This document shows, one piece after another, positions 49,541 to 52,778 of a DNA stretch of 64,000 nt. Every line of letters begins with the position of its first letter. The first letter of the stretch is position 1. The stretch comes from Celeribacter persicus (GTDB lineage Bacteria; Pseudomonadota; Alphaproteobacteria; Rhodobacterales; Rhodobacteraceae). The stretch covers positions 1 through 64,000 of the forward strand of contig NZ_QAOH01000013.1 of the NCBI RefSeq assembly GCF_003050785.1, given 5' to 3'. The position numbers and the translations under genes were made by a program. Under the pieces are notes generated by a model, which did not search any database, was not told the DNA's origin, and saw nothing but the letters and a program-made list of their open reading frames with translations.

Positions 49541-50107
49541 TCAGGCCTTGCTGCCACGCGCGAGCGCTGCAACGCCGGTGCGGGCGGTTTCCACCAATCC
49601 CAGCGGGCGCATCAACTCGGCGAAAGCGTCGATCTTTTCCGAGGTGCCGGTCATCTCGAAGACAAAGCTTTCCAGTGTGCTGTCCACAACATTGGCGCGG
49701 AAAATCTCCGCCAGACGCAGCGCCTCGATGCGGTTGTTGCCGGTGCCTTCGACCTTGAACAGTGCCAGTTCGCGTTCGATCGACGGGCCCTCGACAGTCA
49801 GGTCATGGACCTCATGCACGGGCACGATGCGCCCCACCTGCGCCTTGATCTGTTCGATCACATCGCGCGTGCCAGTCGTGACCACGGTGATGCGCGAACG
49901 ATGGCCCTCATGATCGACTTCGGCCACGGTCAGGCTTTCGATGTTGTAGCCCCGGCCCGAAAACAGACCGATGACGCGGGCCAGAACCCCCGCCTCGTTG
50001 TCGACCAGAACGGCGAGGGTGTGTTTTTCGATGACTTCCGCGTGGTAGTCACGAAGGTCATAGGCGGAATGGCTCGACGAGCCTTGTTGGATACGTAGGG
50101 CGGACAT
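49541..50107 (-). CDS. ilvN: Acetolactate synthase small (regulatory) subunit
   Basis: 188 residues: an N-terminal ACT domain (HTLAVLVDNEAGVLARVIGL, GYNIESLTVAEVDHEG) and the C-terminal domain with ELALFKVEG and FVFEMTGTSEKIDAFAEL. It binds valine and activates the catalytic subunit. Start at 50107 (MSALRIQQGSSSHS) behind GGGAGA. It follows ilvB after 126 bases in the same operon. Confidence 0.94.
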   Translation of the reverse strand: MSALRIQQGSSSHSAYDLRDYHAEVIEKHTLAVLVDNEAGVLARVIGLFSGRGYNIESLTVAEVDHEGHRSRITVVTTGTRDVIEQIKAQVGRIVPVHEVHDLTVEGPSIERELALFKVEGTGNNRIEALRLAEIFRANVVDSTLESFVFEMTGTSEKIDAFAELMRPLGLVETARTGVAALARGSKA

Positions 50108-50233
50108 GCTTTTCTCCCTTAATCCACGCGCTGCGTGGCGAATATCTCTGTAAATCCCGGGCTCACCCCGCAAGCCCCCAGGTCGCGACCAGCGCGGCGA
50201 GGGCAGTGCGGAGCCATTTCCCGAAGCGTTTCA

Positions 50234-51982
50234 TCAGACCAGAACCGCGCCGTCGGATTTGATCGCGCCTTCGACGTAGGCTTCGCCCAACAACATTTCG
50301 TTGTGCGGCTTGCCCGACGGGATCATCGGGAAGCAGTTTTCATGCTTCTCGACGAGGCAGTCGAAGATCACCGGACCGTCGTAGTTGATCATCTCCATGA
50401 TCGCGTCGTCCAGATCTTTCGGGTCGGAACACTGGATGCCCTTCGCGCCAAAAGCTTCGGCGAGCTTCACGAAATCGGGCAGGGCTTCGGACCAGCTCGA
50501 CGAATAGCGCTCGCCATGCAGCAATTGCTGCCACTGGCGCACCATGCCGAGGCGTTCGTTGTTCAGGATGAACTGTTTCACCGGCAGGCGGTATTGGATC
50601 GCCGTGCCCATTTCCTGCATGTTCATCAGCCACGAGGCCTCGCCCGCAACGTTGACCACGAGGCTTTCGGGATGCGCCATCTGCACCCCGATCGAGGCCG
50701 GGAAGCCGTAGCCCATGGTGCCGAGGCCACCGGAGGTCATCCAGCGGTTCGGGTCTTCAAAGCCCAGAAACTGTGCCGCCCACATCTGGTGCTGGCCGAC
50801 CTCGGTGGTGATATAACGATCCATGCCCTTGGTCAGTTCTTCGAGCCGTTGCAGCGCATATTGCGGTTTGATCACCGTGTCGGAATTCTTGTAGGTCAGG
50901 CAGCGGACCTCGCGCCATTCCTCGATCTGTTTCCACCAGGCCGAAATGTCAGCTTTTTTGCGACCGCGCGATTTCCACACTTTCAGGACGTCTTCCAACA
51001 CATGGCCGACATCGCCGATCACCGGCAGATCGACATGGATGATCTTGTTGATCGAGCTGGGGTCGATATCGACATGGATCTTCTTGGAATTCGGCGAGAA
51101 ATCCTGAATCCGTCCGGTGATCCGGTCATCGAACCGCGCGCCGATGTTGATCATCAGGTCGCAGCCGTGCATCGCCATATTGGCCTCGTAAAGACCGTGC
51201 ATGCCCAGCATCCCGAGCCAGCCTTTGCCAGACGCCGGGTAGGCGCCCAGACCCATCAGCGTGGAGGTGATCGGAAAGCCCGTCGCATCCACCAGCTCGC
51301 GCAAAAGCATCGAGGCCGCAGGGCCGGAGTTGATCACGCCACCGCCGGTGTAGAACACCGGGCGTTCGGCTTTCTCGATGAGCGCAACGATGTCGTTGAT
51401 CTCCTCGATGGAGGCTTTCACCCGCGGTTTGTAGTGACCCATCTTGACCTTCGTCGGAGGTGTGTACTCGCCATCGGCGAACTGCACGTCTTTCGGCAGA
51501 TCAATGAGGACCGGGCCGGGGCGACCGGAGGTGGCAACGTGGAACGCCTGATGGATGGTCTCGGCGAGCTTGTCCGTGTCTTTCACCAGCCAGTTGTGTT
51601 TCGTGCAGGGGCGGGTGATGCCGATGGTGTCGGCCTCCTGAAACCCGTCGGTGCCGATCATGAAGGTCGGAACCTGCCCGGAGAAGACCACGAGCGGAAT
51701 GCTGTCCAGAAGCGCGTCGGTCAGGCCGGTGACGGCATTGGTCGCGCCGGGGCCGGAGGTCACGAGGGCGACACCGGGCTTGCCGGTCGAGCGCGCATAG
51801 CCCTCGGCGGCGTGGAGCGCGGCCTGTTCATGGCGCACCAGAACGTGCCTGATGTCGTTCTGCTGGAAAATCTCGTCGTAGATCGGAAGGACAGCGCCCC
51901 CCGGATACCCGAATACCGTGTCCACGCCCTGATCCTTGAGGGCCTGAACCACCATTTTCGCTCCGGTCATCTGACGTGTCAT
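50234..51982 (-). CDS. ilvB: Acetolactate synthase large (catalytic) subunit
   Basis: 582-residue ThDP enzyme for the first common step of valine/leucine (and isoleucine) synthesis. The catalytic glutamate is in VRHEQAALHAAEGYARSTG; FAD-interacting and substrate blocks (GPGATNAVTGLTDALLDSIP; MGLGAYPASGKGWLGMLGMH) and the ThDP motif GEASWLMNMQEMGTAIQY are visible. The last motif has GEA where GDG is usual; I recall the same in other Roseobacter-group proteins. The start MTRQMTGAKMVVQ has GGAGA. Controlled by a leader-peptide attenuator upstream. Confidence 0.95.
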   Translation of the reverse strand: MTRQMTGAKMVVQALKDQGVDTVFGYPGGAVLPIYDEIFQQNDIRHVLVRHEQAALHAAEGYARSTGKPGVALVTSGPGATNAVTGLTDALLDSIPLVVFSGQVPTFMIGTDGFQEADTIGITRPCTKHNWLVKDTDKLAETIHQAFHVATSGRPGPVLIDLPKDVQFADGEYTPPTKVKMGHYKPRVKASIEEINDIVALIEKAERPVFYTGGGVINSGPAASMLLRELVDATGFPITSTLMGLGAYPASGKGWLGMLGMHGLYEANMAMHGCDLMINIGARFDDRITGRIQDFSPNSKKIHVDIDPSSINKIIHVDLPVIGDVGHVLEDVLKVWKSRGRKKADISAWWKQIEEWREVRCLTYKNSDTVIKPQYALQRLEELTKGMDRYITTEVGQHQMWAAQFLGFEDPNRWMTSGGLGTMGYGFPASIGVQMAHPESLVVNVAGEASWLMNMQEMGTAIQYRLPVKQFILNNERLGMVRQWQQLLHGERYSSSWSEALPDFVKLAEAFGAKGIQCSDPKDLDDAIMEMINYDGPVIFDCLVEKHENCFPMIPSGKPHNEMLLGEAYVEGAIKSDGAVLV

Positions 51983-52020
51983 GTTGTTCTCCGTCTGCAC
52001 ATCGTCACTTTGTTTTCTGC

Positions 52021-52052
52021 AATAAAAAAGCCCCCGCTGTTCAGTCGGGGGC
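52021..52052 (-). terminator. ilv attenuator terminator
   Basis: On the minus strand GCCCCCG / CGGGGGC stem (52052-52046 with 52036-52030), 9-base loop, followed by CTTTTTTATT. It lies between the leader peptide and ilvB, 38 bases before the ilvB start. Confidence 0.88.
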
Positions 52053-52093
52053 GCATGGGTTCCATTATGGTCAACCGTCACCGGCCCATGCGC
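52051..52093 (-). promoter_or_regulatory. ilv antiterminator stem
   Basis: GCGCATGGG (minus strand, 52093-52085, within the leader-peptide codons) pairs perfectly with CCCATGCGC (52059-52051), whose end overlaps the first bases of the terminator stem. Ribosome stalling at the Ile/Leu/Val codons would leave it free to form and block termination. Confidence 0.75.
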
Positions 52094-52125
52094 GTGTTCC
52101 CTACGAGTACAAGAATGCCAGACAT
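52078..52125 (-). CDS. ilvL: ilv operon leader peptide (15 aa)
   Basis: ATG at 52125 with AAAGGA 6 bases upstream; reads MSGILVLVGNTRMGR then stop. Five consecutive codons for Ile, Leu, Val, Leu, Val at 52116-52102 make it sensitive to charging of all three branched-chain tRNAs. Followed by mutually exclusive antiterminator and terminator hairpins before ilvB, the classical attenuation layout. Confidence 0.88.
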   Translation of the reverse strand: MSGILVLVGNTRMGR

Positions 52126-52178
52126 GGCGTTTCCTTTTGGGGCTCTGACCCTTACGGGCCCTTCATTGCGTGGGCGGG

Positions 52179-52207
52179 ACATTAGGACCCGGCTGATCAT
52201 GCGTCAA
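52179..52207 (-). promoter_or_regulatory. ilv operon promoter
   Basis: Minus-strand -35 TTGACG (52207-52202), 17-base spacer, -10 TAATGT (52184-52179); expected start about 45 bases before the leader peptide ATG. Fits the attenuator layout. Confidence 0.6.
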
Positions 52208-52778
52208 CCGCAAAACATCCGCTTGATTGAATAAAATGTCGCAGCGCGGCATGTGTGTGAAATAATGTTAAAAGGGCTGACCTATTTTATGCCATCTCCG
52301 GATTTGTGTGTGAGCCCGGGGCATGTTTGGGGGGAGCGAATTTGTAAGGTTTGCGGTAAGGGGCGCGTGATCAAGTGTCTCTGTCAGCGCCTTCTATATT
52401 CTGAAAAAGGCATCCGACCGAATTGCGGACTGGGTATCCGTTTCTCCGATGAGCCTGTAGCCAAACAAGGCGCGATACATTCGAGTGCAAGATAGAACAT
52501 GGCACCACCCGCGGCCATCACGGGAGGAAGGGCGGGGTCAGGTATGACCCTGCCAAACCTTATGCCGTGGGACTGACAGAGTGCACTGAATGCGCGCACA
52601 GCGGCGATCTGGAGAGACTACACCAAGGGTGTTCCGATCAGAGAGACATGGACAGACCGCGTGTCGTATTTCCCGAGATACCACGCGACAGCCCTCCGGT
52701 ATCACGCGATGAATTGGCGGGCTTTCTTCATTACACCAGTTCGCTGCCTTTGGTTTGATGGAGCGAGCCCCGCTCCCT
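52208..52778. other. 571-base gap without recognised features
   Basis: Several short frames cross it (for example a Cys-containing 80-codon frame at 52253-52495) but none has a start signal or resembles a protein. I see no repeat or hairpin of note. Confidence 0.4.

Follow-up and report, generated by a model that had tools for sequence, protein, structure and literature searches.

The ilvBN genes of Celeribacter persicus are very probably controlled by a ribosome-mediated transcription attenuator, which would read the charging of Ile-, Leu-, and Val-tRNA. An attenuator for these three branched-chain amino acids (BCAAs) had been proposed in a first-pass annotation of the DNA, and both the anatomy of the leader and its conservation fit this proposal. 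The leader, its codons, the stems, the bases that they share, the spacing, the promoter, and the gene context were established from the sequence and its comparison with related loci. The element is located on the minus strand of the window, which is the 64,000-nucleotide stretch of DNA analyzed in this study.

Anatomy of the ilvBN leader region

The ilvB gene (acetolactate synthase large subunit, 50234..51982, minus strand, start at 51982) was assigned with NCBIfam NF006581 / TIGR00118 (1129.5 bits against NF006581, cut-off 974), and the ilvN gene (small subunit, 49541..50107, minus strand, start codon inferred) with NF008864 / TIGR00119 (221.2 bits against NF008864, cut-off 119). Among the matches listed, the named ilvB nearest to that of the window is from Celeribacter sp. 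PS-C1 (93%). A 699-codon open frame on the plus strand (50135-52234), antisense to ilvB and the leader, is probably a by-product of the G+C-rich codon structure.

Upstream of ilvB, the minus strand carries a candidate promoter consisting of the -35 hexamer TTGACG (52202..52207) and, 17 nt past it, the -10 hexamer TAATGT (52179..52184), both read from the sequence and already pointed out in the first-pass annotation. The -10 hexamer has three of the six consensus letters and is weak by the E. coli consensus. The motif TTGAC was found 20-110 nt 5' of the leader start at 74/74 related loci, compared with 10/74 in a control stretch. The distance from TTGAC to the leader start is mostly 52-65 nt in relatives, so that the 82 nt of the window is an outlier, and a CATAATGT-like block stands at the -10 offset in 44 of the 81 TTGAC occurrences in relatives. 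The set of 74 rows used here and below was obtained by removing L073, L031, L081, and the spurious ORFs of L078 and L079.

The leader ORF (MSGILVLVGNTRMGR, 15 codons plus TGA, 52078..52125, minus strand), which was recognized from the sequence and its relatives, follows a Shine-Dalgarno-like AAAGGAA (52131..52137, minus strand). A putative ribosome-binding site of this kind, in the form of a Shine-Dalgarno-like 4-mer, also precedes the leader in 70/74 relatives, versus 9/74 in the control. Codons 4-8 of the ORF are ATT CTT GTA CTC GTA (Ile-Leu-Val-Leu-Val, 52102..52116, minus strand), and were taken as the regulatory codons from the sequence and the codon bias described below. The 15-codon ORF with its Ile-Leu-Val-Leu-Val run and its own Shine-Dalgarno sequence is thus present as the first-pass annotation had reported it.

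Three hairpins follow on the minus strand. The 5' arm of the stem P1, GCGCATGGG (52085..52093), lies within the leader codons Thr11-Gly14 and forms nine exact pairs with the 3' arm CCCATGCGC (52051..52059), as supported by a pair check and by relatives. Inside P1, the mini-hairpin P2 (CCG-GTGA-CGG, 52075..52084) has a GNRA-type loop that contains the leader stop codon. The terminator hairpin (52030..52052) is formed by GCCCCCG (52052-52046) and CGGGGGC (52036-52030) around a 9-nt loop, and is followed by the U-tract TTTTTT (52024..52029). The boundary dinucleotide GC (52051..52052) is common to P1 and the terminator, which share exactly these two bases. These observations bear out the earlier description of an exact 9-bp stem and a terminator with six T that have bases in common.

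A generic scanner of the window listed neither the terminator nor the promoter; its loop limit was 8 nt. The whole 186-nt leader folded no better than its shuffles (z -0.75, 41 of 200 shuffles folding as well), and the 88-nt part from P1 to the terminator folded slightly better than its shuffles (z -1.75, 7 of 200 as good). Therefore, the case for the element rests on the conservation of the leader, the stems, and the spacing.

Conservation and codon choice in the Rhodobacterales

Among the best 80 of more than 588 ilvB matches, 76 loci had a BCAA-rich leader with a terminator; of the other four, L022 ends at a contig edge and L072, L078, and L079 had no leader. A covariance model built from 77 sequences (R1) gave one match in the C. 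persicus genome at 86.6 bits, the runner-up among 24 scoring 23.7 bits. It matched 272 of the 292 genomes sampled from the order (259 at E<1e-6), the listed ones being all from one family. The first-pass annotation had called multi-amino-acid attenuation rarer in annotated Roseobacter genomes; the model matches indicate that the element is not rare in the Rhodobacterales and that the gap is one of annotation.

Fourteen genomes with weak or missing R1 matches were examined. A leader with a terminator was absent from the six g145 genomes checked and from one g236 genome. Another six carried a BCAA leader of a different kind together with a terminator (such as MKTQCQKLVVVM, MGRILVVLARRGRMG, and MRSCILVIAKRAPRRM), and at L240 a leader with a terminator was discernible by eye only. 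Judging by these sequences, the element seems to have been lost in genus g145 and its stems to have been rebuilt elsewhere. In the g145 loci (L227, L228, L231, L232, L236, and L238), a plain TTGACC promoter stands before ilvB in 6/6 checked. The divergent leaders at L229, L230, L234, L235, L237, and L239 have wholly different stem sequences, and several of them again place the stop codon in the hairpin loop before the terminator. Outside the family, a simple filter found no BCAA-rich ORF with a terminator at any of 28 ilvB loci (L142-L169; L147 with 83 nt upstream only). A match before ilvB at L153 (21.0 bits with R2, a model without the terminator) was rejected as noise, the sequence having neither a BCAA leader nor a terminator.

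Both leader codons and stems are kept in relatives, which is the comparison that the first-pass annotation had itself proposed as a check. P1, P2, and the terminator were paired in 98.0% of cells, with changes on both sides at 8 of 17 pairs; this level of pairing and covariation was reached by 0/500 shuffles, and slid versions paired in 27.0-59.0% of cells. The covariation is largely due to a few divergent rows (L031, L073, L076, and L081). The terminator stem alone was paired in 99.8% of cells. The distance from the stop codon to the U-tract is 44-53 nt in 73/74 Rhodobacteraceae rows (median 47 nt), the remaining row at 35 nt being probably due to a T-run in a loop; nine relatives from other families have 46-50 nt, and three rebuilt leaders have 40-42 nt.

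The position of the stop codon in a hairpin loop recurs at or below 0.05 in 8 of 18 lineages by a strict criterion against shuffles, and shuffles equaled or beat L073, L216, L229, and L240 in at least 39.8% of cases. A loose version of this test (18/21, versus 17.3 expected from shuffles) was discarded as worthless since its criterion admitted any large loop.

Of the 79 leader ORFs, a set that still includes two spurious ORFs and the misassigned L073, 66 have 15 codons, and in 56 exactly three codons lead from the last Ile, Leu, or Val codon to the P1 codon CGC, which is the spacing that a ribosome covering about 12 nt would require. Relatives strongly conserve RMGR at the end of the leader, and its codons differ where the stem differs (L031, L073, and L081, and also L234, L235, and L239).

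The Ile, Leu, and Val codons of 76 leaders were compared with those of the ilvB genes of the same loci. In the leaders, CTA (36 observed versus 1.3 expected), GTA (109 versus 8.6), CTT (54 versus 12.9), and ATT (42 versus 11.3) were in excess, whereas CTG (9 versus 76.5), GTG (17 versus 100.5), and GTT (7 versus 28.6) were depleted. Since GTT is depleted while GTA is enriched, the bias does not reflect A+T content alone. Reasons why such a bias may sharpen sensing are discussed in the accessible part of PMC1183508.

The codon just before CGC (codon -5) ends in G in 74/74 rows, and in 39/39 where a synonym exists, compared with 90/669 among the remaining leader codons. As the rows share ancestry, neither these counts nor those of the leader codons above are independent. 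The terminal G of this codon forms the P1 pair with the shared C, and the pattern in the sequences indicates that selection holds this pair. The exception, AAA at L073, is outside the 74-row set. The overlap between P1 and the terminator is GC in the window and GCC where codon -5 ends in GG (36/75 rows).

The proposed switch and its alternatives

From this arrangement we infer that the leader is translated, that ribosomes stall on it, that the two stems compete for GC(C), and that ilvBN is thereby regulated. When Ile-, Leu-, and Val-tRNAs are plentiful, the leading ribosome would get to the leader stop codon and mask P2 as well as the P1 5' arm. The terminator could then form fully up to the U-tract, and transcription would end near 52024. 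In a shortage of any of these tRNAs, the ribosome would stall on codons 4-8, many of which are the rare GTA, CTA, CTT, and ATT in the family. The stalled ribosome would leave the 5' arm of P1 bare, so that P1 and P2 might fold, the base of P1 capturing the boundary GC(C). The terminator stem would then lack two to three pairs and lie at a distance from the U-tract, and RNA polymerase would continue into ilvBN.

The least secure step is the capture of the boundary bases by P1. Given an attenuator, competition for the boundary GC(C) is the somewhat favored form of the switch, and it is considered the most likely mode by analogy with ilvBNC of Corynebacterium glutamicum (PMC11857589). The final codons of the leader supply the 5' arm of P1, and the partner of this arm overlaps the terminator by only 2-3 nt. 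We folded 77 sequences, including L073 with its misassigned ORF, using ViennaRNA. The two pairs at the terminator base had a median probability of 0.98 (above 0.5 in 75/77) when the last BCAA codon was placed in the ribosomal A-site, 0.997 (77/77) when the ribosome was at the stop codon, and 0.81 (58/77) when the first BCAA codon was in the A-site. The biggest drop was obtained for RNA without a ribosome (median 0.20, above 0.5 in 28/77), which would predict readthrough when the leader is not translated. The fully formed P1 and the fully formed terminator differed by a median of +1.5 kcal/mol (P1-full minus terminator-full, range -1.7 to 3.4, 72 sequences). In these modeled equilibrium folds P1 and the terminator coexist, so that sharing bases does not by itself make the stems mutually exclusive, and a switch would have to depend on the shared GC(C). 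The antiterminator and terminator stems of the first-pass annotation do share bases, and ViennaRNA keeps both with the ribosome on the last BCAA codon.

This coexistence also agrees with the main rival to GC(C) competition, in which the element is an attenuator and P1 acts without competing for pairs, either because P1, lying against the terminator base, would crowd the hairpin and impede its closing within the RNA exit channel or because the spacing of ribosome and polymerase matters. We consider this possible, if clearly less probable. The kept distance from stop codon to U-tract (Rhodobacteraceae median 47 nt) would suit it, as would the rhizobial relatives described below, in which P1 ends 7 nt before the terminator with no common base while the leader, P1, and a stop-to-U-tract distance of 49 nt are kept. 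However, the G of codon -5, partner of the shared C, is kept in 74/74 rows, and up to four bases (GCGC) are common to P1 and the terminator at L125, L126, L127, and L129, both of which argue against this rival.

An additional action in trans, by the leader peptide or by the terminated leader RNA of about 150 nt, as for rnTrpL / peTrpL of Sinorhizobium, is rather unlikely. Such a role has a precedent in peTrpL, according to the accessible text of PMC7298713 and PMC10117765, and would be in line with the classification of the rhizobial form as an sRNA in Rfam (RF02502 Atu_C8, 121 bits for the S. meliloti leader) and with the conserved leader end RMGR. Nevertheless, RMGR is explained by P1, as its codons shift where the stem shifts, and a role in trans would be compatible with attenuation. 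Constant partial termination by an unregulated leader and terminator is very improbable, since a fixed terminator would have no use for selection on BCAA codons and rare synonyms, even though genus g145 could lose the whole element and retain a plain promoter (6/6 checked).

The proposed attenuation of ilvBN has counterparts among known systems. The enteric ilv attenuators (ilvGMEDA and ilvBN) likewise combine an Ile/Leu/Val-rich leader, alternative stems, and a terminator, and have a larger stem overlap and longer leaders. In the "fast" attenuator of Corynebacterium ilvBNC, a BCAA leader also precedes ilvB, and the bases of adjacent hairpins overlap at GCC, as at GC in the window; the accessible part of PMC11857589 describes competition of the hairpins for this boundary GCC, a rise in ilvBN expression upon mutation of the terminator base, and a proposed antiantiterminator H1. 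Corynebacterium belongs to another phylum, and this likeness is likely convergent. The ilvB-II motif is also from Corynebacterium, and attenuation of ilvB by uORFs is argued to be common in the accessible text of PMC10272879. Within the same order, uORFC-8-2, the cysS leader of the Rhodobacterales, is described in PMC8632094 (accessible part) as a ribosome-mediated attenuator; it shares the leader peptide with the window element, whereas it has cysteine codons and precedes another gene. Searches of the window against Rfam at gathering scores, and of the leader region at E<=10, gave no ilvB motif (ilvB-OMG, ilvB-II, and others, as far as modeled).

Probable relatives of the module before transporter genes, and Rfam Atu_C8

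Among 285 genomes outside the family, R1 matched 63 at E<=0.001, and only six at E<=2.9e-8 (L125-L130, matches from position 1501); the next match, in genome G138 (9.0e-7), was to a terminator only. None of the six stands before ilvB. Each precedes a gene for a Bcr/CflA-type MFS transporter in other alphaproteobacterial families; three of these MFS genes were tested against TIGR00710 and passed its cut-off, and each of the remaining genes shares 62-68% identity with one of the three. The leaders of the transporter-linked modules (MNPKSVVVVVSRRCMVR, MTVTTVVVGAWRLDR, MHILIVVVGERRLDR, and MKLQVDVVVEGCLGR) have Val-rich runs in 4/6. The other two fit a BCAA signal poorly, as the L129 leader (MYLSNTAGVGARRPGR) has no BCAA run and the L130 leader (MSIRIVSQYVWRAVL) has scattered BCAA codons only. 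With R2, for which the noise maximum in this set was 21.0 bits, L125-L127 scored 43.3-45.3 bits, L129 25.7, L216 24.5, and L128 17.1, and L130 gave no match. These scores make common descent firm for L125-L127 and probable for the rest.

In total, 45 MFS loci were examined: the module was found in six, all outside the family, and the P1 pattern was absent in 33/33 loci of the family. The MFS homolog of the C. persicus genome itself (L183, 41%) had neither a leader nor a terminator. Before an MFS gene of the Rhodobacteraceae (L204), we observed a terminator (CCCCCG..CGGGGG, TTTTTT) and a candidate leader MPHLTTVFVCTGCVDR without the P1 pattern. In Burkholderia cenocepacia (Betaproteobacteria), a module with a leader ending in CFIVVVHRRRVR precedes an MFS gene (L216:1272-1339, R1 51.6 bits), for which a transfer between classes is possible. 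An MFS homolog on the Agrobacterium plasmid pAt2 (56% identical) lies behind a TPP riboswitch (L215:1315-1431, RF00059, 74.6 bits) and not behind a BCAA leader.

The Rfam family RF02502 (Atu_C8) scored 17.5 bits against the window and 21.3-31.6 bits against six of seven relatives, L031 giving no match; all these scores are below the gathering cut-off of 50. In contrast, five rhizobial loci scored 96.9-121.1 bits. Atu_C8-type BCAA leaders with a terminator were located at L082:1501-1620, L217:1579-1699, L218:1579-1699, and L219:1582-1702, and precede ilvB/ilvI (Sinorhizobium and Shinella) or an MFS gene (Rhizobium and genome G107). A search of a plasmid collection with one Atu_C8 locus gave 16 matches, and the context of 14 was determined: by coordinates, 11 were just upstream of MFS matches, and three preceded ilvB/ilvI, as shown by the acetolactate synthase annotation in S. 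meliloti Ak57 and by tblastn in Shinella and Sinorhizobium K101. Among relatives of G107, 6/6 further Atu_C8 matches above the cut-off precede MFS genes. Since the first full match (L082) was not before ilvB, Atu_C8 was at one point regarded as a chance terminator match, a reading that the later ilvB/ilvI and MFS loci overturned.

Like the window element, Atu_C8 has a leader with a BCAA run, an (R)RMG end, the P1 arms GCGCATGGG/CCCATGCGC, a stop codon in a hairpin loop, and a terminator, whereas the sequences of P2 and the terminator differ. P1 is identical in the rhizobial module and is separated from the terminator by 7 nt, and so no base is common to the two. R2 scored 23.3-27.0 bits against the rhizobial loci, a small margin over the noise maximum of 21.0 bits that gives modest support for homology. 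By these resemblances, Atu_C8 looks like the rhizobial form of the ilvB module. The broader proposal, that one homologous module, rhizobial form and function included, serves in two contexts, AHAS genes (ilvB/ilvI) and Bcr/CflA MFS genes, and has been passed between unrelated genes, appears to us evenly balanced on the sequences compared. The AHAS context was found in the Rhodobacteraceae, Sinorhizobium, and Shinella, and the transporter context in Rhizobium, Phyllobacterium, several other alphaproteobacterial families, and a Burkholderia. If the proposal is true, slowing of ribosomes at valine (or Ile or Leu) codons would trigger production of the transporter. This would suggest that the transporter exports a compound that depletes BCAAs or delays the reading of those codons, and the Atu_C8 sRNA would be the terminated leader of the switch.

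A leader peptide before an alphaproteobacterial ilvB has been reported earlier. In the accessible text of PMC1273637, an ilvB leader peptide encountered in a screen of alphaproteobacteria is credited to an earlier description (Vitreschak 2004), and in that of PMC2573895 an "ilvIH cis regulatory" element of S. meliloti is listed with a citation of Vitreschak et al. 2004; the attenuator as cited in both likewise has a leader peptide before AHAS genes. The MFS context and the link to Atu_C8 look new, as the open-access literature (subscription journals being outside the scope) contained nothing on a leader before Bcr/CflA genes or on Atu_C8 as an ilv leader.

The window element is ordinary in kind, a probable textbook-type switch that is nearly universal in its family (272/292) and without an Rfam match at the cut-off. 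These genomes would offer hundreds of natural variants of an attenuator whose hairpins would compete for two or three bases; so far, only one genus has provided a test of this design. Additionally, the strongly skewed synonymous codons may allow selective tRNA charging, the theory of which is given in PMC1183508 (accessible part), to be tested directly on natural sequences. If the transporter link holds, it would provide the first clue to when Bcr/CflA pumps are made in rhizobia and their relatives, and the Rfam sRNA Atu_C8 would be re-filed as a cis-regulatory leader.
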